Positions 40,709 to 61,408 of a DNA stretch of 64,000 nt are shown here, piece after piece; within the stretch, counting starts at the first letter, position 1; the number at the start of each line of letters is the position of its first letter. The translations under genes and the position numbers were made by a program. The stretch lies in NCBI RefSeq assembly GCF_001693485.1, contig NZ_MAXC01000003.1:1-64000 (forward strand), given 5' to 3'. Source of the stretch: Bradyrhizobium sp. LMTR 3 (lineage in GTDB: Bacteria > Pseudomonadota > Alphaproteobacteria > Rhizobiales > Xanthobacteraceae). The notes beneath the pieces are model-generated. The model was given only the letters and a program-made list of their open reading frames with translations, was not told the DNA's origin and did not search any database.

Positions 40709-41488
40709 TCAGTTGGCAAGAGGCGTCTGCGGCGCGATCTTGTTCTGCGCGATGATGGCTTCGGCCCGCGCGAGATTTTCCAGCAGGCGCTGGCTGGTCA
40801 AGACGAGGAAGTAATAGCCGAACTGCGGGTTTTGGAAGTAGATCTCGAGCAGCTTTTCATAGCTGATAGTCAGGACGCGGCCATCCTCGATACATTCGAT
40901 CGTCGCGGTCCGGCGGTTGTCGGGCGTGAGGAAACCAAGCTCGCCCATCAAACGCCCCGCCGGAAGTTCGACGTTGATTTCGATGACCCGGAATTTGCCG
41001 GTAACGGTCAGCAGCATTTCGTTGGCTGCGTCACCCTTCTTCATCAAGATATCGCCCTTGCGATACTTGCGGTCGGTCATGAACGGCTTGAGCCACTCCA
41101 TCGACATGTCGCCCTGTGTTGCGGTGCGCGCCTTCTTCACGAGAGCGAGCATCTGACGGAGACGGTAGGCATTGATGGGAATCATCAGGAGATAAAGAAG
41201 AAAGATCGTGACGGCTCCGGTGAGCGCACCGAAGATGGCGAAGAATGCGCAACCGATCATGTTCGCGACCCGCAGCGGCACCATCGTGTGCGTCAGCAAT
41301 GTGGCGACAAAGAAGATCGCGCCGACCAGGGCGAACATATTGGCAAGCGTGATGTTGTGCAGAAAGATTTCCAGCAGGCGGTTGAAGATGGCGTCCCAGG
41401 TCACGTTGTTCGGATCGAGACCCATTTGGACCAGTATCTTCGCGAACCTGAGATTGTCGGTTGCTGCATCGAGAATGCGGTCCAGCAT
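40709..41488 (-). CDS. Membrane-anchored cyclic-nucleotide-binding protein
   Basis: A 259-residue protein. The N-terminal half has a helix MLDRILDAATDNLRFAKIL followed by two or three hydrophobic segments (ITLANMFALVGAIFFVATLLTH, ANMIGCAFFAIFGALTGAVTIFLLYLLMIPI). The C-terminal half is a CAP-like barrel: YRKGDILMKKGDAANEMLLTVTGKFRV, then the phosphate cassette LPAGRLMGELGFLTPDNRRTATI. GELGF with RRTA is close to the cNMP cassette, so nucleotide binding is likely. There is no DNA-binding or channel domain. ATG 41488 has better spacing from AAGGAG than ATG 41497. Confidence 0.85.
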   Translation of the reverse strand: MLDRILDAATDNLRFAKILVQMGLDPNNVTWDAIFNRLLEIFLHNITLANMFALVGAIFFVATLLTHTMVPLRVANMIGCAFFAIFGALTGAVTIFLLYLLMIPINAYRLRQMLALVKKARTATQGDMSMEWLKPFMTDRKYRKGDILMKKGDAANEMLLTVTGKFRVIEINVELPAGRLMGELGFLTPDNRRTATIECIEDGRVLTISYEKLLEIYFQNPQFGYYFLVLTSQRLLENLARAEAIIAQNKIAPQTPLAN

Positions 41489-41767
41489 GATGGACATATC
41501 TCCTTTGGAGCCGGTGAGGCCAGTTTACCAGAAGTGGCTTTATCGCAGCGCAGCAAACTTGGCCGCCCGACTTCCGAGGCGGGTCACGAGCGGCTGTCGA
41601 AGGATCGCTGATGCGAAGTCCGGACTGCCCTCAATACCAGACCAGCCGCAGGCGACGAAGTTGGTCGGCTTGGGGCCAACACCAGACGTAGCGGGAAACG
41701 AGAGCCAACTGACGCGGCCTTCCCCCTTAGATGGGATACCGCCATCTCAGAGCGCGTCGGACGACAG

Positions 41768-41968
41768 CTAACGCCACAAAGTTTGCGAGGGTGCTGAACC
41801 AAAGGAAAGTTGGGACGATGACGCGGCCCATAAATGGATCAGGTAAACGATCTGCGCAATTAGACCAGCAAGCAGCCCCACCGAAGTCCAGCCAAGAGGT
41901 GTCCGGGGCGCGTAATCAGAGGATTTGCCGATTGGAAGGTCCGCGATCCAGAGTGCCAAAGCTTCCAT
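41768..41968 (-). CDS. Possible small membrane protein (66 aa)
   Basis: An ORF starting MEALALWIADLPIGKSS with one hydrophobic helix (VGLLAGLIAQIVYLIHLWAA) and a short polar tail. The topology looks real, but there is no clear ribosome-binding site and the family is unknown. It lies 54 bp downstream of the next small ORF on the same strand. Confidence 0.3.
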   Translation of the reverse strand: MEALALWIADLPIGKSSDYAPRTPLGWTSVGLLAGLIAQIVYLIHLWAASSSQLSFGSAPSQTLWR

Positions 41969-42021
41969 TCTGAATACTCGCGTGTGGGACCGTTCCTGTG
42001 AGCCCCGAAGATATTTCACTC

Positions 42022-42183
42022 TTATGTGCAGCGCCAACCACGGTCAGACTTGTACCCGTTATATTTGGCGGTCATTCCCGGAGGACAATTCGGCTTTTGC
42101 CATTGGAGGACTACTACGCCACCGCCGACAAACACAACCGCCGCAAGTATCGCGAAGAGTACGATTTTGAGTTCTGCGTCCAA
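42022..42183 (-). CDS. Small single-span membrane protein with paired cysteines (53 aa)
   Basis: Starts with TTG at 42183, preceded by AAGGGAGCAAGGCAGAAA, a good ribosome-binding site. The product has a short charged N-terminus (DAELK), one strong helix (IVLFAILAAVVFVGGGVVVL) and a compact C-terminal segment KPNCPPGMTAKYNGYKSDRGWRC with two cysteines, probably periplasmic and disulfide-bonded. Function unknown. Confidence 0.5.
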   Translation of the reverse strand: MDAELKIVLFAILAAVVFVGGGVVVLQWQKPNCPPGMTAKYNGYKSDRGWRCT

Positions 42184-42235
42184 TTTCTGCCTTGCTCCCT
42201 TCTCAAGCCGCAAGCGAGCCGCTGCGTTGAGGAAG

Positions 42236-42340
42236 CTACTTAGGCGCGCCCTCAGGGAGCAACCCGAAAGTCTGGAGCAAGCCGTAGATGAACGCTGCTA
42301 GTATTATGAGCCCGATAATGCGATTGATTTTGAACGCCAA
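42236..42340 (-). CDS. Possible 34-residue single-span membrane peptide
   Basis: The frame from TTG 42340 reads AFKINRIIGLIILAAFIYGL then LQTFGLLPEGAPK and stops at 42236. It is a basic cap, one hydrophobic helix and a Pro/Gly end. AAAGGA lies immediately upstream, too close for an ideal start. It is listed because the amphipathic layout is far from random and it sits 52 bp before another small membrane ORF. Confidence 0.35.
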   Translation of the reverse strand: MAFKINRIIGLIILAAFIYGLLQTFGLLPEGAPK

Positions 42341-42643
42341 GTCCTTTGCCCCTCAGTATCGAGAATTACCGCCGATAGCGTCCGGCTACAACTAAACGTT
42401 GCTCCGGAGATTTATCGACGACAAAACGCAAACAATTTTAGTTATGGCTGGGGAGTTTGCTTGCATGGCTACTAGAAAACGGCGGCTAAGGGTCAAAATG
42501 CGATATCGATCTGACTTGCAGACACTTCTGCTTTGCTCCCGACGGCGGACATCTGCCGATTAGCTCGGCATGTCGGTTGAGGGCCACAAGCGGAAGAAGT
42601 TTCGCTGGTAGCAGCGCATGGGATAGGCCATCATCGGCTCTGC
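42341..42643. other. Less GC-rich intergenic stretch, no supported gene
   Basis: These 303 bp include an AT-rich segment (42411-42460). Only a short arginine-rich frame (from ATG near 42444) is open, and it has no ribosome-binding site or recognisable family. It contains CTTCTGCTTTGCTCCCGACG, a sequence type I recall as common in Bradyrhizobium intergenic DNA. Confidence 0.35.
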
Positions 42644-43363
42644 ATGACCCGGCTCATTTGTAACATCTGGTCCAGAATTGTGATCGTCGAAGGGATCATG
42701 GGGTCTGGCAAGTCGACGACCGTGTTGCGAATAGCTGATCGATTGAAGACATCCGGTGTCTCCGTCCTCGGCATTACCGAGGGCATTAGCCCACATCCGA
42801 TCCGTTTCGATTGGGACCTGCCATGGGCGGACATGCCGGCAGCGCAACTGGCGAAGTCAGCCGCTGCCCGTTGGGGTGCCTACGCCACTTCTGCCTCGAT
42901 GTCAGAGAGCATCACGGTTGTCGATGGACAACTTTTCCATGGGAATCTAACGGCACTGTTCCTGCTTGATGCCGACATAGCCCTGATTCGCGGCTATGTT
43001 CATGATGTGGTAGCTGCCATCAAGCCGCTACGCCCCTTGCTGATCTACTTCCACCAAGATGACGTTGACCGAGCTATTAGAACGATTGCTACTGAGCGGG
43101 GCGATGCATGGGTGACATATCAGGTCAATTGGAAACTGGCATCGCCGTATGCCGTTAGGCATGGCTTGGCTGGTCTTGAAGGGCTCATCGAGCTCTATCG
43201 CGATTATCGTCAGCTCACTGACCGGCTCTACACGGATCTGGATATCCCGAAGATCAGCATCGAGAACTCAGGAAGGGAATGGGCGAAGTATGAAGAGACC
43301 ATCGATTCCATCTTGATGAACCCAAATGGGACTGCCGAGGTTGCGAATTTATTGCCCCCATGA
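42644..43363 (+). CDS. P-loop NTPase, nucleoside/nucleotide-kinase-like
   Basis: A protein of up to 239 residues. Walker A is VEGIMGSGKSTTV at about residues 15-27. A later LLDADIAL and the tail NPNGTAEVANLL are consistent with a small-molecule kinase or a thymidylate-kinase-like fold, but no LID or substrate motif is certain. GTG at 42680 would give MIVEGIMGSGKST, a common start for such proteins, and is an alternative to ATG 42644. Base composition is less GC-rich than its neighbours, suggesting transfer. No partner gene is adjacent. Confidence 0.7.
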   Translation: MTRLICNIWSRIVIVEGIMGSGKSTTVLRIADRLKTSGVSVLGITEGISPHPIRFDWDLPWADMPAAQLAKSAAARWGAYATSASMSESITVVDGQLFHGNLTALFLLDADIALIRGYVHDVVAAIKPLRPLLIYFHQDDVDRAIRTIATERGDAWVTYQVNWKLASPYAVRHGLAGLEGLIELYRDYRQLTDRLYTDLDIPKISIENSGREWAKYEETIDSILMNPNGTAEVANLLPP

Positions 43364-43519
43364 GCAAGATAAGGTTTGCAGCCAGAGATCAGGAGTCGAT
43401 CAAGAGGGCAGCGGTCGTCTGGTGGGTAGGATCACAGGCCACAACATGTTTGCCCGTGCAAGAGATCAGCGATTGATGCGATCCGAAATTGAAGTCCAGG
43501 CGAATGCCCGGTCCACGCC

Positions 43520-44032
43520 CTAGAACATCCCTTCACGGTCCGCGCGCTTCTTCTTTTTCGAGCGCTGCCAGACCACGCCGGGATATCCCTTCAGCGGCAC
43601 CAGCGGCTCGCCGGTATAGGCCCATTCCTGCAACTCCTCGATCGCGATGTGATAGAGCGGCTGGCGGCCGGTGCGGCCGGAGAACAGCGCGCGGGGGATG
43701 TTGACCATGTGCGGCGAGCGCGGGCGCTCATAGACGACAGGCGTGCCGCAATTGGAGCAGAAACTCCGCACGGTCTTGGTGGCCTCGTCTTCGTAGCGCG
43801 TGAGGCTGGTCTTGCCCTTCGTAATACGGAATCGTTTGCGCCAGCTTCCGACATAGGTCGCATAGGCCGCGCCGTGCGCGCGACGGCTCGCCGGCGAATG
43901 ATCGTGCCAGGCCCAGCGCGCCGGCACGTCGATCTCGAAGGCGACCTTGCCGCACAGGCATTGGCCCGCGGCAGGTTTGCCGAGGGATACGGCCTTGGTT
44001 TTCTTTTTCTCTAATTCCTCTTCTGGAAACAT
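43520..44032 (-). CDS. GFA/CENP-V-fold protein with altered zinc site
   Basis: A 170-residue protein of the glutathione-dependent formaldehyde-activating family: GQCLCGKVAFEIDVPARW, AAYATYVGSWRKRFRITKG, SFCSNCGTPVVYE and a C-terminal PLYHIAIEELQEWA. The first pair (CLC) and the FCSNCG pair are present, but the middle C-H-C-x2-C motif that holds the catalytic zinc is replaced by HDHSPA in the segment WHDHSPASRRAHG. Activity is therefore doubtful. The Lys-rich ends (KKKTK, KKKK) are unusual. Confidence 0.8.
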   Translation of the reverse strand: MFPEEELEKKKTKAVSLGKPAAGQCLCGKVAFEIDVPARWAWHDHSPASRRAHGAAYATYVGSWRKRFRITKGKTSLTRYEDEATKTVRSFCSNCGTPVVYERPRSPHMVNIPRALFSGRTGRQPLYHIAIEELQEWAYTGEPLVPLKGYPGVVWQRSKKKKRADREGMF

Positions 44033-51980: not shown

Positions 51981-52676
51981 TCAGGCAGCTTGCGTGCGTT
52001 TGGCGTTCAACCGCGCGAGCACGTCGTCCGCGGTTGATTTCAGGCGTGGCCCAAAGCCCTGCTCGGCGAGCTTTTCGGCGGTCGCCAGCGGACCGCTGGC
52101 GGCATCGAGTTCGACCAAGGCGTCGGCCGCGGCCTGGGCCTCGATCTGGCGCTCACGCAGCCGCTTCAGCGTGTTCTCCGCTTCCGGCAGCGTGGATTCG
52201 TAAGGGCGCGCGGCTTCGACGCCGCCCCTTCGGAGCGCGCGAACCGCTTCCGACGCGCGAGCGATGCGACGGCCGCGATCGAGCTCGGTAATCCGCGCCT
52301 CGGCGTTGGCAACCTGGCGCTTCATGCGTGTGATTTCAGACGCAAACAGCGTCCGCGCGGTCATCGCGGCATCGCGGTCGGCCTCGAGATTGGCGATTGC
52401 CTGCGCCGCCTCGCGGGCGAGATCTTCCCTTCCGCCATCGAGCGCAGCGGTGGCGCGAACTTCGAGATCGGCGATGCGGGCGTTGGTGGCGTCGAGACGG
52501 CGCCCCTCCTGCTGGTCGCCCGCGATCGCCAGCGCCAACGAGCGCTTGGAACGTTCGACCGCGGCGGCTGCATCGCGCATCTGCTGATCGAGAATGAGCA
52601 GCGCCGTGCGGTCTTCCAGTTCTTCCCCCGCGGCAGCCACGCTACCCCGGAAAAGCGTCAAAACAGTTTTGAACAT
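51981..52676 (-). CDS. pspA: PspA/IM30-family membrane-stress protein
   Basis: A 231-residue almost entirely helical protein: FKTVLTLFRGSVAAAGEELEDRTALLILDQQMRDAAAAVERSKRSLALAIAG, then long coiled-coil regions with repeated Ala/Glu/Arg. The N-terminal amphipathic helix (MFKTVLTLFRGS) is the expected membrane-binding helix. It should assemble on damaged inner membrane. The first TGAGC palindrome ends 19 bp upstream of its ATG, so it is probably repressed by the divergent TetR protein. Confidence 0.85.
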   Translation of the reverse strand: MFKTVLTLFRGSVAAAGEELEDRTALLILDQQMRDAAAAVERSKRSLALAIAGDQQEGRRLDATNARIADLEVRATAALDGGREDLAREAAQAIANLEADRDAAMTARTLFASEITRMKRQVANAEARITELDRGRRIARASEAVRALRRGGVEAARPYESTLPEAENTLKRLRERQIEAQAAADALVELDAASGPLATAEKLAEQGFGPRLKSTADDVLARLNAKRTQAA

Positions 52677-54576: not shown

Positions 54577-56301
54577 GTGGCTGGCAACGAACAAGAGAAT
54601 TACGAATGCGACGCGCTGGTGGTGGGCTCCGGCTGTGCCGGAATGTCGGCAGCGGTCACTGCGGGACATCACGGGCTCAACGTTCTCATCGTCGAAAAGG
54701 AGCCGCGCTTCGGCGGCACCACTGCCCGCTCCGGCGGCTGGCTATGGATTCCCGGCACTTCGCTGGCGAAGGCGTGGGGCATCGAGGAAAGCCCGGAGCA
54801 GGCGAAGACCTATCTCCGCCACGAAGCCGGCAACAGTTTTGATGCCGCGCGCGTCGATGCGTTTCTCTCCGCCGGTCCCGCGGCGGTGGACTTTTTCACC
54901 GGCAAGACGGCCGTGCAGTTCGACATGCCGTTGACCTTTCCGGATTACCACGCGGAAGCCCCAGGCGGTGCGCAGGGCGGTCGCTCGATGGTGACGCGGC
55001 CGTTCGATGGCCGCGAGCTGGGCGAGCATATCAAGGATCTCGGCAATCCCCTCCCCGAGCTCACCGTGTTCGGCATGATGCTGGGCTCCGGCAAGGAGAT
55101 CGTCCATTTCATGCGGGCGACCAAATCGCTGACTTCGGCGGTCTACGTCGCAAAACGCTTGTCGAAGCATTTGATGGACGTGATGCGCCACGGCCGCGGC
55201 ATGACCTTGACCAACGGCAATGCGCTGGCCGGCCGGCTGGCAAAATCCGCGTTTGACCTGAAAATTCCGTTGTGGCTGTCCTCGCCCGTGCATGAACTGA
55301 TCGTCGAGGATGGCACGGTGCGCGGCGCGATCGTCGAGCGCCATGGCAAGCTGGTGCGCATCATCGCCAAACGCGGCGTGGTGCTCGCCTGCGGCGGCTT
55401 TCCGCATGATGCGGCGAGGCGCAAGACGATGTTTCCGCACGCGCCCACCGGCGCCGAGCATTTTTCGCCGGGCCCCGTCGGCAACACCGGCGACGGATTG
55501 CGGCTGGCGGAGACCGCCGGCGGCCGCATCGAGGAAACGCTGCCGAATGCGGCTGCCTGGGTGCCGGTCTCCATCACCGAGCGCAAGGACGGCTCCAAGG
55601 GCGTGATGCCGCATTTCATCGACCGCGCGAAACCCGGCGTCATTGCGGTGATGCGCGACGGCAGGCGTTTTGCCAATGAAGGCAATTCCTATCATGACTT
55701 CGTGCAGGCGATGGTGAAGGCTGCAAAGCCCGGCGAGGAGATCACCGCGTTCCTGCTGTGCGATCACCGCGCGCTGCGAAAATACGGGCTCGGCTGCGTG
55801 CCACCGTTTCCGATGCCGCTGCGTCATCATCTCGCCACCGGCTACCTCAAGCGCGGCGCAACGCTGGCAGAACTGGCTGATAGAACCGGCATCGATCGAC
55901 AGGGGCTCGAAGCGACGGTCGCCGAGTTCAACGCCTCGGCCGCGGAGGGGCGCGATCCTGCCTTCGGCAAGGGATCGCGCGCCTATAACCGCTACCAGGG
56001 CGATGCGCTGCACGGGCCGAACCCCTGCGTCGCGCCGATCAAGGACGGACCGTATTATGCGATCAAGCTGGTGGTCGGCGATCTCGGCACCTATGCTGCC
56101 ATCAAGACCGATGCGCATGCCCGCGCGCTCGACGAACACGGCCAGCCGATCACCGGCCTCTACGCCGCCGGCAACGACATGGCGAGCATCATGGGCGGCA
56201 ACTATCCCGGCGCCGGTATCACGCTGGGCCCCGCGCTGACGTTTGGATACATCGCAGGCAAGCATATCGCGGCGAATGCTTCCGAGACCGCCACGCGATG
56301 A
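54577..56301 (+). CDS. FAD-dependent oxidoreductase, fumarate reductase/ketosteroid-dehydrogenase type
   Basis: A 574-residue flavoprotein of the FAD_binding_2 group: CDALVVGSGCAGMSAAVTAGHHGLNVLIVEKEPRFGGTTARSGGWLWIPG at the N-terminus, IIAKRGVVLACGGFPHD, the central capping domain and the C-terminal LYAAGNDMASIMGGNYPGAGITLGPALTFGYIAGKH. It could act on steroids, succinate-like acids or another unsaturated substrate. GTG 54577 follows ACGAGGCGGATCGC and removes the repeat-derived extension. It has no redox partner encoded nearby. Confidence 0.9.
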   Translation: MAGNEQENYECDALVVGSGCAGMSAAVTAGHHGLNVLIVEKEPRFGGTTARSGGWLWIPGTSLAKAWGIEESPEQAKTYLRHEAGNSFDAARVDAFLSAGPAAVDFFTGKTAVQFDMPLTFPDYHAEAPGGAQGGRSMVTRPFDGRELGEHIKDLGNPLPELTVFGMMLGSGKEIVHFMRATKSLTSAVYVAKRLSKHLMDVMRHGRGMTLTNGNALAGRLAKSAFDLKIPLWLSSPVHELIVEDGTVRGAIVERHGKLVRIIAKRGVVLACGGFPHDAARRKTMFPHAPTGAEHFSPGPVGNTGDGLRLAETAGGRIEETLPNAAAWVPVSITERKDGSKGVMPHFIDRAKPGVIAVMRDGRRFANEGNSYHDFVQAMVKAAKPGEEITAFLLCDHRALRKYGLGCVPPFPMPLRHHLATGYLKRGATLAELADRTGIDRQGLEATVAEFNASAAEGRDPAFGKGSRAYNRYQGDALHGPNPCVAPIKDGPYYAIKLVVGDLGTYAAIKTDAHARALDEHGQPITGLYAAGNDMASIMGGNYPGAGITLGPALTFGYIAGKHIAANASETATR

Positions 56302-56743
56302 ACGGCCCTGCCGGCGGGGTCTGATGAGAAAAGGCACAGCGACAATCGAAGCCCCCGCAGCAGCAGAGCTGCAGCACACGTCGGACGCGCCGGCTCCATG
56401 TGTCGGCAAAAAAATTCCGGACGAATGTGTGCGACACCACATTGACAATCAACATTTCATGGCGCTCAATTAAAAGAATTATTCTTTATAGATACAACCG
56501 CGTACCATTTCAGTTGGTAGTGTGGCAGGCAATTCATGCTCCTTCCACGTACACACAGCCATGCGGTCTCATCCGGCAAGCGATCGGGCATGCGCGCGCG
56601 GAATTCCGCGCCACGTTGCCCGCTTTGTGATTCAGGCGATGCAACATTGAATCGCAGTGCATGGCAGGCGGCAACCACCCGCGGCGCCGTCATTTCGATA
56701 GCATCAAACTTTAGCGACCCGAAAACCCGAAGGGCAGGCTTCG
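56302..56743. promoter_or_regulatory. Low-GC leader region of the patatin-protease-MBL operon
   Basis: This 442-bp gap contains AT-rich stretches (56451-56500) unlike the surrounding DNA and a TTGACA hexamer at 56442-56447 that could be a -35 box, although no strong -10 at 17 bp is seen. No supported gene lies within it. A long leader of about 270 nt would result if transcription starts near 56475. Confidence 0.4.
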
Positions 56744-57880
56744 ATGGTAGACGAACCCGTACAATCCATTGGCGGTGAAGCGGCCGAGGGTGGCCCGCAG
56801 GACGGCACTGCACTCTGCCTTTCGGGCGGAGGCTATCGCGCGATGATTTTTCATATCGGCGTGCTTTGGCGCCTCTATGAGACAGGTATCCTTCAGAAGG
56901 TGAAACGCATATCGAGCGTCTCCGGCGGCTCGATCACCGCGGGGCTGCTCGCCCTCAAATGGAACAGGCTTACCGGGAGCCAAACCCCGGACATGCAACT
57001 CTTTCGTCAGGAATTCGTCGGGCCGCTGCGCGCGCTCGGGCGAACGACCATCGACGTCAAGGCCGTCATCCTGGGCCTGCTCCTGCCCGGGCGCGTGAGC
57101 GACCGTGTCGTTGCAGCGTATGAGAAGCACCTGTTCGGTTCGGCCACGCTGCAGGATCTTCCGGACAAGCCGAGTTTTGTCATCAACGCGACCAGCGTGC
57201 AGTCCGGCGCGTTGTGGCGCTTCACGAAGCCGTACATGCGCGACTACCGGGTCGGCGAGGTCCTGAAGCCCACCATCAGCCTGTCGAAAGCTGTTGCAGC
57301 TTCCTCCGCGTTTCCGCCCGTGCTGTCTCCCGTCGAGATCAAGCTGAACGATAGCGCATTCACGCCGAAGTCGGGATCCGACCTGCAGCGGCCTCCGTTC
57401 ACAACGAACGTCGTTCTCTCGGACGGCGGCGTCTACGACAACCTGGGTCTGGAGACCGCCTGGAAGCGCTACCGCACCATCCTGGTGAGCGACGCTGGCG
57501 GAAAGCTTCAGGCCGAAGAAAGCCCGAAAGCCGATTGGGGCAATCACGCCTATCGCGTGTTCGATCTCGTCGATAACCAGGTGCGATCCCTGCGGAAACG
57601 TCAGGTGATCGATTCCTTCAAACAACATATTCGGTCAGGAGCCTATTGGGGAATTCGGACCAACATTCTCGATTACGGACTGGCAGACGCCCTGACTTGT
57701 CCGTTCGACGCGACCATGCGGCTTGCCGAAACGCCCACCCGGTTGCAAGCTATGGACGATCAATTGCAGGAGCGATTGATCAATTGGGGCTATGCAGTAT
57801 GCGATGCCGCGATCCGGAAACATTACCAGCCTGCGTTGCCAAAACCTGACAAATTTCCCTTTCCAGCATCAAAGGTCTGA
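56744..57880 (+). CDS. Patatin-like phospholipase
   Basis: A 378-residue patatin-fold lipase. The oxyanion loop GGGYRA is at residues 28-33, the nucleophile Ser60 lies in SVSGGS (equivalent to G-x-S-x-G), and the dyad Asp227 is in SDGGVYDN. All catalytic parts are intact. No signal peptide or membrane span, so it acts from the cytosol. It is first of three genes, and the stop is 3 bp before the next ATG. Patatins are the membrane-degrading effectors of several bacterial immune systems (for example CBASS CapV), which is the basis for the conflict-system proposal. Confidence 0.9.
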   Translation: MVDEPVQSIGGEAAEGGPQDGTALCLSGGGYRAMIFHIGVLWRLYETGILQKVKRISSVSGGSITAGLLALKWNRLTGSQTPDMQLFRQEFVGPLRALGRTTIDVKAVILGLLLPGRVSDRVVAAYEKHLFGSATLQDLPDKPSFVINATSVQSGALWRFTKPYMRDYRVGEVLKPTISLSKAVAASSAFPPVLSPVEIKLNDSAFTPKSGSDLQRPPFTTNVVLSDGGVYDNLGLETAWKRYRTILVSDAGGKLQAEESPKADWGNHAYRVFDLVDNQVRSLRKRQVIDSFKQHIRSGAYWGIRTNILDYGLADALTCPFDATMRLAETPTRLQAMDDQLQERLINWGYAVCDAAIRKHYQPALPKPDKFPFPASKV

Positions 57881-57883
57881 GCC

Positions 57884-59842
57884 ATGACGGTGCTCATTCC
57901 GAGAACCTTGGCCGAATACATCCTGCTTGGACCGACCGGTGATCGCCGTCAGCTCCAGGACTCGCCGATTTTGGGCGATGTCTGGATTGCATATGCGAGC
58001 GAGGCTGGACCGCAGGAGCTGCTGATCACACCGTACAAGACGAATACAGCAGGCCTCGTCGCAAACTGGATCGATGGCGAAGTCGATCACGATCGGCTGA
58101 TGCATAACGCGAGTGGTCGCGAGCCTCGAGAAATTGCCTATCTGCAGGGTGTAATCGCCGCACGGCTGTACTTCGACGAGGTGCTGCGCGTCATCGTACC
58201 GACGACGAGCTGGTGGAGCAGCGCGCGCATTCAAGGCGATATGGCGGTCTATCTGCAGGCCGCAAGCGGCAGTCAACGCATCAACGCCGTTCTGGATACA
58301 GTTCAGGAAATGGCGGCACACTGGAGCGATCCCAAGACAATCAAGAAATCGGCCGGAATGCTGACGGCACTCGATCGCTACGCCGCGCTCGCCGGCATTA
58401 TTCTCTGGGCGGCCCAAACCACCACGATCGGACCAGATGCAAAACCAGCGGAACTGGCTGCCGCGATCAAGGCAGGAAAAGGCGACATTGCGCGCCTGCT
58501 GACCGATTTGTTCTCCGAAATTCTCGATCGCCAAGAACAGAACGACGCAAACCGGCGCAAGCAATGGAAAGATTCGCTCGTCTATCAGGTTTCACTCAAT
58601 CGGCGCGCCGATATGGCCGTCGCTCGATCCGTGCCTTCAGTCAAGGCGGACGCCGCCCGCCTGCTCTTCACGGTCAATTGCGCAGAGATCGCGTGGGCCG
58701 TCATCGATTCCGGGATTCAGGGCGATCACCCATGCTTCAAGGATGCGACCGGGAAGGAATCCAGGGTCGTTGCCAGTTTCGATTTCAGCAACTTTCGCAA
58801 GATCGTCAACCTCGACAACCTCAGGATCTTCAACGAAAACGAAGATCCGGAAGTACAGGAGGGCAAGCTCAAGCAGCTTCTGCCGGACGGGCACAAACTG
58901 CCCGAAGGGCAGAAACTGAAGCAGGCCGGCGCCAAGCTGATCTCGAACCTCGTTCAATTGTCCAGGGATGCAAGGGCGCAACGCCCGATTCATTGGGAGC
59001 TGGTCGAACCGTTCATCGAAATCAAAATCGACACGCGCCCATCGGTAAGCGATCACGGCACGCACGTCGCCGGCATCATTGGCGCCAGGGCACCTCAAAA
59101 GCGAACCAAGGCCATTGCGGAAGACGACAGGATCGACGGGATGTGTCCCGATATCCGGCTCTACGACTTCAGGGTCCTTTCGCGAAACAGCGACGAGAAA
59201 GACACCGAATTCGCGATTATCGCCGCCTTGCAGTACATCAGGCATCTGAACGAGCGCCACGACTATATTTCAATTCACGGCGCAAACCTCAGTCTTTCGA
59301 TCAAGCACGATGTGCGGAACTACGCCTGCGGCCGAACGCCGATTTGCGAGGAGTGCGAGCATCTGGTCGAAAGTGGCGTGGTAGTGGTCGCGGCCGCCGG
59401 AAACTACGGATTTCAGAGCTTTACGACTACCGATGGTGCGTTCGAAAGCTATGCCGCGTTCAGCATCACCGATCCCGGAAATGCGGACGGCGTGATTACG
59501 GTCGGATCGACGCATCGATCGCTGCCGCATACCTACGGTGTCAGCTTTTTCTCGAGCCGTGGTCCGACCGGGGATGGAAGATTGAAGCCCGATCTGGTCG
59601 CGCCGGGCGAGCGCATCCATGGTCCGTTCCGGGACGGCTGGGGCGACCTCGACGGAACGAGCATGGCCGCTCCGCATGTCAGCGGCGCTGCGGCGATGCT
59701 GATGGCGCGATATCCGGAATTCATCAAGCAGCCGCGCAAGGTCAAGAAGATATTGTGCGAAACCGCGACCGACCTCGGCCGCGAGCGCAGCTTCCAGGGC
59801 AGCGGGCTATTGGATGTGCTCAGGGCTTTTCAGAGTATTTGA
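57884..59842 (+). CDS. Cytosolic subtilisin-family (S8) serine protease
   Basis: A 652-residue protein. Residues 1-265 are an uncharacterised helical N-terminal region. The S8 domain follows with Asp275 (VIDSGIQGDHP), His391 (SDHGTHVAGIIG), oxyanion Asn507 (AAAGNYG) and Ser593 (DGTSMAAPHVSG), so the triad is complete. About 115 residues separate Asp and His, against roughly 30-40 in most subtilases; the insert is charged (NENEDPEVQEGKLKQLLPD). No signal peptide or typical propeptide is seen, so it should be intracellular. It probably acts on the adjacent patatin or on cell targets. Confidence 0.9.
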   Translation: MTVLIPRTLAEYILLGPTGDRRQLQDSPILGDVWIAYASEAGPQELLITPYKTNTAGLVANWIDGEVDHDRLMHNASGREPREIAYLQGVIAARLYFDEVLRVIVPTTSWWSSARIQGDMAVYLQAASGSQRINAVLDTVQEMAAHWSDPKTIKKSAGMLTALDRYAALAGIILWAAQTTTIGPDAKPAELAAAIKAGKGDIARLLTDLFSEILDRQEQNDANRRKQWKDSLVYQVSLNRRADMAVARSVPSVKADAARLLFTVNCAEIAWAVIDSGIQGDHPCFKDATGKESRVVASFDFSNFRKIVNLDNLRIFNENEDPEVQEGKLKQLLPDGHKLPEGQKLKQAGAKLISNLVQLSRDARAQRPIHWELVEPFIEIKIDTRPSVSDHGTHVAGIIGARAPQKRTKAIAEDDRIDGMCPDIRLYDFRVLSRNSDEKDTEFAIIAALQYIRHLNERHDYISIHGANLSLSIKHDVRNYACGRTPICEECEHLVESGVVVVAAAGNYGFQSFTTTDGAFESYAAFSITDPGNADGVITVGSTHRSLPHTYGVSFFSSRGPTGDGRLKPDLVAPGERIHGPFRDGWGDLDGTSMAAPHVSGAAAMLMARYPEFIKQPRKVKKILCETATDLGRERSFQGSGLLDVLRAFQSI

Positions 59843-59853
59843 GGAGGCTACCC

Positions 59854-61221
59854 ATGATTTTCAGTCTGGACGTCCGGCGGGCACGCAAGGGCGATTGCCT
59901 GCTGCTGCACTTCGGCACCAAGCAGGAGCCCGGGCTCATCATGATCGACGGCGGACCCAGGTCCGTCTATGCGCCGCATCTCAAGCCGAGATTGATGGAA
60001 ATCCGCGAGGCGCGCAAAATCAAGAAGAACGATCCGCTACCGATCGACGTGCTGATGGTCAGTCATGTGGACGACGATCATATCCAGGGAATTCTGGATT
60101 TCACCAGGGAAGAAATCGCCAATGTGGAGGCGCACAAGCCGCGTCTGCTGAATGTGTTCAGCCTGTGGCACAACAGCTTTGACGATATTATCGGCGGTCA
60201 GCCAGCGGAATTGACGGCGAAAGTGAACGCGACATTCAAGACGGAGGCCAGCACCGGAGCAGTCGAGCTGTCCGACGAAAAGGTCGAAAGCGTGGAAGAT
60301 ATCTTCATCGACCAGAATCCCGGAGGCAATGACGCCGCGGACGCGGAAGTGGTTGGAAGTTCCCTGAAGGTGCTCGCCAGCATCGCGCAGGGCTTTCGGC
60401 TGAGAAGGGATGCCGATCGGCTCGGCTATGGGCGCAACGCCGAGTTCGGGGGGAAGCTCATCGCCGCGCCACAAGGCAAGGCGCCGACCAGGATAGCCAA
60501 TTCGCTGGACGTCACCGTCATCGGTCCCATGCTTGAAGAGATTGAGGCGCTGCACAAGGACCATCAGAAATGGCTTGAGGATCTCAAGAAGCAAGGAAAG
60601 ACGCCCGAAGAGGCTCTCGCGGCCTATGTCGACAAATCCGTTCCCAATTTGTCGAGCATCGTGGTGCTCGTGGAGGTAGACAAGAGGCGAATGTTGCTGA
60701 CCGGGGATGCGAGGGGCGACAAGATTCTCAAAGGGCTGCAACTGGCGGGCAAGCTCGACAAGGACGACGGCACAAAGATCGAAGTCGATCTTCTCAAGGT
60801 GCCGCATCACGGAAGTTCCAATAATCTCGACAAGGATTTCTTCGAGCGCATCATCGCGAAGCATTATGTGTTCTCGGGCGACGGCGAACACGGCAATCCC
60901 GAACGCGAAAGCCTCGAGATGCTGCTGAAGGCGCGCAAGGATGGCGACTACCAGATACACCTGACGTATCCATTGAAGGAAATAGACCAGCTGCGCGAGG
61001 AGGATTGGAACAAGGAGCGCAACAAGCAGATCGCGCGCAAGAAGAAGAGCGGAAAAGGTACGGTGCGCGAGGAATGGTCGGCGCAAGATCACGGTCTGCT
61101 GGCGCTTTTCGATGCCAATCCACAGTTCAAGGGGAAACTCAGGATTGTCGACAAAAAGAAGCCGCATATTATCGACCTGGGCGATCCGCTAGCGGCTTCC
61201 TGGCCGGCGCTGGCCAATTGA
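59854..61221 (+). CDS. ComEC-like metallo-beta-lactamase-fold protein
   Basis: A 455-residue MBL-fold hydrolase. The motif VSHVDDDHIQG (H71-x-D-x-D75-H76) is the ComEC/Rec2-type variant of H-x-H-x-D-H. Asp285 (LLTGDARGDK) and the VPHHGSSNN histidines complete the site. Two insertions (about 85-215 and 230-262) have no known domain, and the C-terminal 100 residues are Lys/Arg-rich (RKKKSGKGTV). No membrane span, so this is not the DNA-uptake channel. It lies 11 bp after the protease gene, with GAGGAGGCTACCC at the start. MBL proteins accompany proteases in Avs1-type defence systems. Confidence 0.88.
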   Translation: MIFSLDVRRARKGDCLLLHFGTKQEPGLIMIDGGPRSVYAPHLKPRLMEIREARKIKKNDPLPIDVLMVSHVDDDHIQGILDFTREEIANVEAHKPRLLNVFSLWHNSFDDIIGGQPAELTAKVNATFKTEASTGAVELSDEKVESVEDIFIDQNPGGNDAADAEVVGSSLKVLASIAQGFRLRRDADRLGYGRNAEFGGKLIAAPQGKAPTRIANSLDVTVIGPMLEEIEALHKDHQKWLEDLKKQGKTPEEALAAYVDKSVPNLSSIVVLVEVDKRRMLLTGDARGDKILKGLQLAGKLDKDDGTKIEVDLLKVPHHGSSNNLDKDFFERIIAKHYVFSGDGEHGNPERESLEMLLKARKDGDYQIHLTYPLKEIDQLREEDWNKERNKQIARKKKSGKGTVREEWSAQDHGLLALFDANPQFKGKLRIVDKKKPHIIDLGDPLAASWPALAN

Positions 61222-61259
61222 CCCGCCCACCACGGCCCGAGTGATGAAGCTGGCGGCTA

Positions 61260-61283
61260 ACACCGTTCCGGCTGCGCCGGTGT
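61260..61283 (+). terminator. Weak hairpin after the MBL gene
   Basis: ACACCG and CGGTGT pair around a GC-rich loop, about 40 bp after the MBL stop, with no T-tract. It is the only candidate end for the three-gene operon before the next gene. Confidence 0.3.
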
Positions 61284-61408
61284 CAGAACCCGAGGTTTGG
61301 CCACACAGCGGAACGGGATATCGCAGGCGAGATTTGGACCAGCCGGCGATGCGGTGGAACGAACGTCGATCGATTCGATTGTGTTCTGATCCAACCGGAG
61401 ATCGTTCC

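Follow-up and report, generated by a model that had tools for sequence, protein, structure and literature searches.

A patatin, subtilisin-like protease and MBL gene cassette of Bradyrhizobium, a candidate protease-gated anti-phage module

The genome of Bradyrhizobium sp. LMTR 3 carries a cassette of three adjacent genes, encoding a patatin-like lipase, an S8 (subtilisin-like) protease and a ComEC-type MBL protein, which we are on balance inclined to read as an anti-phage cell-suicide module, in which the protease would open a self-blocked MBL DNase and would release the lipase or act alongside it. This reading draws on sequences, on predicted structures and on analogy to published systems. 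All coordinates refer to the window, i.e., the whole stretch of 64,000 nucleotides that was analyzed.

Results

The cassette and its predicted products

The three genes lie on the forward strand of the window, the lipase gene first (56744..57880, 378 aa), followed by the protease gene (57884..59842, 652 aa) and the MBL gene (59854..61221, 455 aa), with intergenic gaps of 3 and 11 bp, and so the coordinates confirmed the compact, same-strand cassette described in the first-pass annotation. The products matched the Pfam families Patatin (4.8e-23), Peptidase_S8 (4.4e-40; neither a trypsin nor a caspase class) and Lactamase_B (6.6e-8), respectively. Their catalytic residues, previously noted as intact, were all present: the Ser60/Asp227 dyad of the patatin (Ser60 within SVSGGS, Asp227 within DGG), Asp275, His391 and Ser593 of the protease, and HVDDDH (residues 71-76), Asp285 and His318 of the MBL protein. 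Across the 37 loci that were compared, both patatin residues were conserved in all 14 in which the patatin was aligned, and the catalytic His of S8 was missed by pairwise alignment in five, four of which contain a GHGT motif and one of which (L059) contains HGT or HGS. The absence of signal peptides was likewise upheld, as hydropathy alone, the only measure used here, revealed neither a signal peptide nor a membrane segment in any of the three proteins (maximum 19-residue mean 1.28-1.42).

The dN/dS values argue that the three frames behave as coding, being 0.39, 0.135 and 0.186 for patatin, S8 and MBL against the nearest full relative (G651), and 0.113, 0.147 and 0.155 as median pairwise values in a second clade (44, 55 and 55 pairs). 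The S8 gene is 96% identical to a gene of B. retamae. Upstream of the cassette, a leader separates it from the flanking dehydrogenase gene (56302..56743, forward strand) and likely holds the promoter.

Structure prediction yielded an S8 model that matched pro-subtilisins from residue 22 or 42 through 652; models besides the best were poor (mean pLDDT 64.7-70.2), hence the fold match alone was used. The predicted propeptide-like domain (residues about 42-240; 58007..58603, forward strand) holds a helical insertion at about 114-222; this N-terminus is likely auto-inhibitory and, together with its insertion, is a candidate sensor of the trigger. The fold of the MBL model resembled that of ComEC nucleases, and two additional stretches of low confidence lay between the HxDxDH and the later metal motifs, namely residues 109-180 (60178..60393, forward strand; pLDDT block means 45-69 over 111-180) and residues 236-268 (60559..60657, forward strand; block means 60-78 over 231-270). 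According to the available text of Tuck et al. 2025 (PMC12799240), the ComEC-type MBLs of protease-MBL pairs are pro-DNases with two insertions that are cleaved by a partner trypsin-like protease or caspase. By model and by analogy, the two stretches of the window MBL are candidate gating insertions, and from these homologous systems we infer that they gate the active site and that S8 would cleave there. The MBL protein, which had initially been proposed to destroy or sense a nucleotide signal, is better read, given this parallel, as a gated DNase cut by a protease.

The cassette is a block that comes and goes

Alignments demonstrated that four relatives (L066, L067, L082 and L083) lack a block of ~5.08 kb (56273..61354) at this site, where the flanking dehydrogenase gene and the small gene before mdoG are 30-34 bp apart. 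The gene caller placed only the three cassette genes in this block, and likewise found no fourth gene in the block of a second version of the cassette, described below. The G+C content of the block is 0.585, compared to 0.629 in the left flank and 0.611 in the right one, and this low value, together with the spread of the empty state, favors gain of the block. Comparison of the block ends with each other gave chance-length matches only (best 11 bases, E 0.03). Prophage cargo was ruled out, as at E <= 1e-8 the MBL had no match among phage records, and an S8 relative was missing from all five candidate viral contigs.

The second version is diverged (patatin 61-68%, S8 50-52% and MBL 51-54% identical to the window genes) and occupies another site, flanked by a CxxCxxCC gene on one side and an MFS gene on the other (as identified in L033), in 11 Bradyrhizobium loci (L033-L043), whose shared setting was judged by flanking gene lengths, with a DNA check for two. 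Comparison of 15 of the 25 loci returned for this site found the trio in two and its absence in 12, the window genome (L097) among them, and an open patatin gene alone in one, that of G006 (L109). The trio, whose recurrence in other genomes had been put forward as a test, is in this sense a recurrent cassette whose presence at its site varies between genomes.

Two-gene versions, also asked for at the outset, exist, as do one-gene versions. The patatin match is reduced to the last 57 residues in B. retamae (L032) and to the two ends of the protein in L035, and both loci have S8 and MBL open; the pairwise dN/dS of these S8 and MBL genes was 0.10-0.26, values of which most of the history may predate patatin loss. 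As judged from these open frames, two loci have kept the protease-MBL pair beyond the loss of the lipase, and the patatin alone in G006 indicates that the lipase is tolerated there without the protease, so that the parts of the cassette are not strictly inseparable. A further decayed cassette (L168, genome G487) has its patatin in two frames, an MBL fragment and no S8 match.

The S8 protease is most often followed by an MBL gene

We surveyed S8 relatives (E <= 1e-25) in overlapping genus, order and phylum samples that included the genome of the window, scoring the best 3-4 candidates per genome, such that the tallies are lower bounds: at least 23 of 265, 7 of 347 and 4 of 398 genomes, respectively. 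A profile survey for the MBL (best four candidates per genome) found it in at least 6 of the 398 phylum genomes. Judging by their names, further S8 relatives belong to Gemmatimonadota, Pyrinomonadaceae and Syntrophobacteraceae. Among the best 120 matches to each protein, contigs of equal length were shared by S8 and MBL in 26 cases, by S8 and patatin in 12, by MBL and patatin in 8 and by all three in 5; as these are agreements in length and no more, the loci themselves were relied on. Among the 32 distinct S8 loci, window included, 24 have an MBL gene directly downstream within ~150 bp, seven have instead a protein of 437-457 aa directly downstream and no MBL, and one (L061) has neither. An MBL gene beside a protease gene, the arrangement expected of gated nuclease-protease pairs, was hence found in the window and in 24 of 32 S8 loci.

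The neighbors of the 24 S8-MBL loci include 13 intact and two truncated patatins and three Tle1-like phospholipases (PF09994), the latter lying after the MBL gene, at 31 bp in L046 and L053 and at about 0.7 kb in L045; in the remaining six no lipase was recognized among the neighbors tested. A GDSL-like neighbor in L044 was dropped as a partner, being below the cut-off and having an N-terminus that appears signal-peptide-like by eye. The 437-457-aa protein is hydrolase-like, with a GHSFG motif in the four members read and in a plasmid locus (L014), and had no match in Pfam (two tested), PADLOC or the PDB in the members tested. S8 followed by this protein, without MBL, is the arrangement of L048-L052, L058, L059 and L014; in L050, a HAD-SIR2-STALD (ThsA-like) protein comes next.

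Plasmid records provided 24 with S8 matches and 18 with MBL matches. Nine S8 core regions from plasmids (L009-L017) have the MBL in eight cases and the hydrolase-like protein in one; S8 of L016 is in two frames, and S8 of L015 and L017 is distant. A plasmid of the actinobacterium Miltoncostaea encodes S8, MBL and a Tle1-like protein.

These associations bear on a different division of labor, in which S8 mainly unlocks the lipase and the MBL works separately, for instance as a phosphodiesterase or on a nucleotide substrate. The replacement of the MBL by the GHSFG-type hydrolase-like protein in seven of the 32 loci speaks for it, as do the phospholipase after the MBL in three S8-MBL loci and in a fourth case on the actinobacterial plasmid, and the match of the MBL model to a phosphorylcholine esterase as well. 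It is, however, the MBL that follows S8 in 24 of 32 loci, with an intact patatin adjacent in only 13 of 32, and it is S8 and MBL that stay open where the patatin is truncated, and so we give this division of labor a minor chance and continue with the protease as opener of the MBL DNase.

One patatin family is shared among MBL loci with unrelated peptidases

Relatives of the window patatin (E <= 1e-40) were found in at least 38 of 265 genus genomes (41 rows, 40 loci), a lower bound with the best seven candidates per genome scored. In 12 of the 40 loci the patatin is accompanied by S8 and MBL, in 13 by an HExxH protein (613-660 aa) and MBL (L153-L164, L179), and in five by MBL and an E2-E1-JAB protein (L167, L169-L171, L174); the one set of these five that was tested, L171, scored above the NCBIfam cut-offs for anti-phage 6A-MBL. 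The rest comprise one broken remnant, one patatin alone and eight other loci, among them L177, with weak 6A-like matches ~3 kb away. In the order sample, at least 8 of 171 genomes contain the family (nine rows): the window, three loci with HExxH and MBL (L219, L221, L224, the last with two small genes between the members), one with a caspase-like protein and MBL (L222), and four without an assigned partner. The L222 protein harbors SHG and DCC motifs, which we take to be caspase signatures, and had no PDB match; its MBL scored 145 bits against the profile of the window MBL. Plasmids add two HExxH cases, L018 and L020, the latter directly beside HamA and HamB. To summarize, within one order the same patatin family is found with an MBL and with S8, HExxH (a predicted metalloprotease), caspase-like or E2-E1-JAB proteins.

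Gene order varies, the patatin being first in L155 and last in L161. In the members tested, PADLOC, NCBIfam and the PDB contained no match to the HExxH protein, and the sole family match, to M4 in L018, was below the cut-off; an HExxH frame in L223 was dropped by eye as a wrong-frame translation, and an HxDxDH frame at that locus was left unassigned. L062 (4616-13277) holds a back-to-back pair of modules, in which an HExxH protein, MBL and patatin share one strand, and another MBL with a weak caspase-like match lies on the other. In L063 (8137-10405), of the same phylum, the MBL gene directly follows the patatin gene and the contig ends just beyond, possibly cutting off a protease gene. Family patatins also lie near metallophosphoesterase genes in L165, L172, L173, L178 and L018 (by family test in L165 and L173, by annotation in L018, and by similarity to L173 in L172 and L178), and in L172, L173 and L178 the patatin is within an 804-805-aa frame.

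To assess these associations against patatins at large, close patatins (30 of the 41 rows) were compared with controls (30 of 114 PF01734 matches in 12 genomes). An S8, HExxH-type or MBL match was located within 1.5 kb of 25 of the 30 close patatins, one of the 25 being a broken remnant, and of none of the 30 controls. Together with the MBL gene next to S8 in 24 of 32 loci, this indicates that the grouping of these genes exceeds chance. A tree of 42 patatins (L168, L172, L173 and L178 left out) requires at least four label changes for S8 and at least two for HExxH on well-supported branches; as the patatin alone in G006 accounts for one S8 change, and L011, L060, L018 and L179 form long branches, we consider repeated exchange of partners likely, short of proof.

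Relatives on plasmids lie beside defense genes

PADLOC scores were obtained for ten neighbors, picked where annotation or Pfam suggested defense, and therefore show association, not frequency. They identified PycC (731 bits), an E2 protein (285) and a TIR effector (336) in L010, HamA (481) and HamB (1221) in L020, SduA (459) in L017, IetA (257) and IetS (102) in L015, a SIR2 protein (127, pAgo-associated profile) in L013 and the ThsA-like protein (126) in L050. FRG-pYEATS proteins were found upstream of S8 in L013 and L016. On the Methylorubrum plasmid pCMU01 (L010, 4466-9887), a Pycsar set with an E2-domain protein lies ~290 bp upstream of the S8-MBL pair.

The window flanks hold metabolic or membrane-stress genes, a TetR-type regulator, or genes with no family match. 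A PspA/IM30 membrane-stress gene (51984-52640) precedes the lipase gene by ~4 kb and is not part of the block. Further upstream, G+C dips to about 0.55-0.57 (41001-44000), and by eye there are a cyclic-nucleotide-binding-like membrane protein (40709-41497) and a P-loop kinase-like protein (42644-43363). The association with defense islands anticipated by the first-pass annotation holds for the plasmid relatives and fails for the ordinary Bradyrhizobium flanks. Similarly, confinement to one clade away from defense islands, which was to count against a conflict system, describes in part the 11 Bradyrhizobium loci with their shared chromosomal setting, and not the plasmids.

Such flanks, and the long retention in one setting in these 11 loci, would suit a housekeeping or stress module for the turnover of lipid and protein, with no role in phage defense. 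Its patchy presence, its two sites and the swapping of partners are at odds with this, as are the plasmid relatives beside Pycsar, Shedu, IetAS and Hachiman genes and the patatin family common to 6A-MBL loci, and we regard a housekeeping role as quite improbable. A defense role directed at plasmids or other incoming DNA instead of phage, with the nuclease unlocked in the same way, would agree with the ComEC-nuclease-like MBL and with the many matching plasmids that are predicted to be conjugative (11 of 24 S8, 13 of 18 MBL and 24 of 36 patatin records), as for other accessory defense; related protease-MBL pairs, however, act against phage in the available text of Tuck et al. (PMC12799240), and we hold an anti-plasmid role to be improbable. 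An anti-virus role for the cassette is likely, because relatives of its lipase adjoin MBLs with unrelated predicted peptidases, one version of which scores as anti-phage.

Likeness to and difference from named systems

The cassette proteins reached no curated defense system by score in the PADLOC and NCBIfam profiles, in agreement with the original impression that it fits none of the named systems. In PADLOC, the MBL matched the defense MBLs LmuA (167 bits) and Avs1a (106), and S8 matched 'subtilase' (148). Among the ten flanking window proteins scanned (three of them without a family match), there was no STAND NTPase or CD-NTase/nucleotidyltransferase, as the first-pass annotation had noted, and no E2-E1-JAB protein or AAA ATPase.

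A CBASS effector shares with the window its patatin domain and the suspected role at the membrane, and was ruled out by the weak score of the patatin against the CBASS lipase (12.4 bits, cut-off 200) and the lack of a CD-NTase match nearby. AVAST type 1 (Avs1abc) resembles the window in combining a protease with an MBL to which that of the window is distantly similar, and was ruled out since the MBL scored 157.9 bits against NCBIfam Avs1a (cut-off 420), with no trypsin-like protease in the window and no STAND NTPase in the flanks scanned. IetAS (AAA ATPase and S8 peptidase) likewise employs an S8 protease in defense, and was ruled out by the best IetS score (33 bits) and the absence of an AAA ATPase beside S8; IetAS is not known to include an MBL partner. 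The 6A-MBL system (NF058523/NF058524; operon row 6a in the available text of Iyer et al. 2006, PMC1779556) also combines an MBL with a peptidase-bearing protein, and a patatin of the window's family adjoins 6A-type genes in five Bradyrhizobium loci; membership of the window was ruled out, as it has S8 in place of the E2-E1-JAB protein, which was missing among the flanks scanned, and its MBL scored 32.9 bits (cut-off 220).

The closest parallels are the protease-MBL nuclease pairs that, in the available text of Tuck et al. 2025 (PMC12799240), occur in Hachiman, AVAST, Lamassu, DRT and Canu. As in the pairs HamM/HamA, Avs1a/Avs1b, Lamassu and DRT, a ComEC-type MBL gene adjoins a protease gene, two extra stretches lie between the metal motifs of the MBL (their blocking role in the window MBL being predicted), and relatives are found among defense genes. 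As far as that text goes, the protease of these pairs is trypsin-like, whereas that of the window is an S8 protease, encoded ahead of the MBL and without fusion to any known sensor, and the window adds a lipase. Canu, as described there, likewise has a protease gene that stands alone ahead of the MBL gene and uses a caspase, where the window has S8 and a patatin; the relative L222 combines a patatin with a caspase-like protein (by motif) and an MBL.

Discussion

Whether the cassette is an undescribed system, as first suggested, has two answers. The protease-MBL pair is already known in kind, such a pair having been published in 2025 (available text of PMC12799240); the patatin-S8-MBL combination was not found described in the literature searched (few subscription papers, no supplements), and within the same scope, neither were the S8 class, the HExxH class or a patatin partner of MBL pairs.

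In the mechanism we favor, the S8 protease would cut open the self-blocked MBL pro-DNase, the patatin lipase would be released by S8 or be active by itself alongside the MBL, and DNA and membrane would be attacked together. It is the recurrence of the lipase that points to it as a second effector, one that might be protease-activated or active by itself.

A broader reading, which we offer tentatively and hold to be possible rather than probable, is that the patatin family generally serves as a third partner in protease-MBL immune modules, in which any peptidase would unlock a pro-DNase and a pro-lipase, and that the pairs of S8 and hydrolase-like protein without MBL would be protease-activated lipases. 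If true, it would imply a protease-triggered double kill of DNA and membrane, whichever peptidase is used (subtilisin, HExxH, caspase or JAB), and the S8 and hydrolase-like pairs would be examples of the other classes of proteolytically activated enzymes considered possible in the available text of Tuck et al. (PMC12799240).

Four predicted peptidases, unrelated to one another, share their loci with an MBL and this one patatin family, and one of the four belongs to an anti-phage system named by NCBI; a patatin of the window's family together with an MBL provides a search rule for unnamed systems. If our reading of the cassette is right, it would widen the pattern of protease-unlocked MBLs to subtilisins and HExxH proteins, with a lipase as a repeated partner, and the question of which enzymes immune proteases unlock becomes directly testable in a laboratory host.
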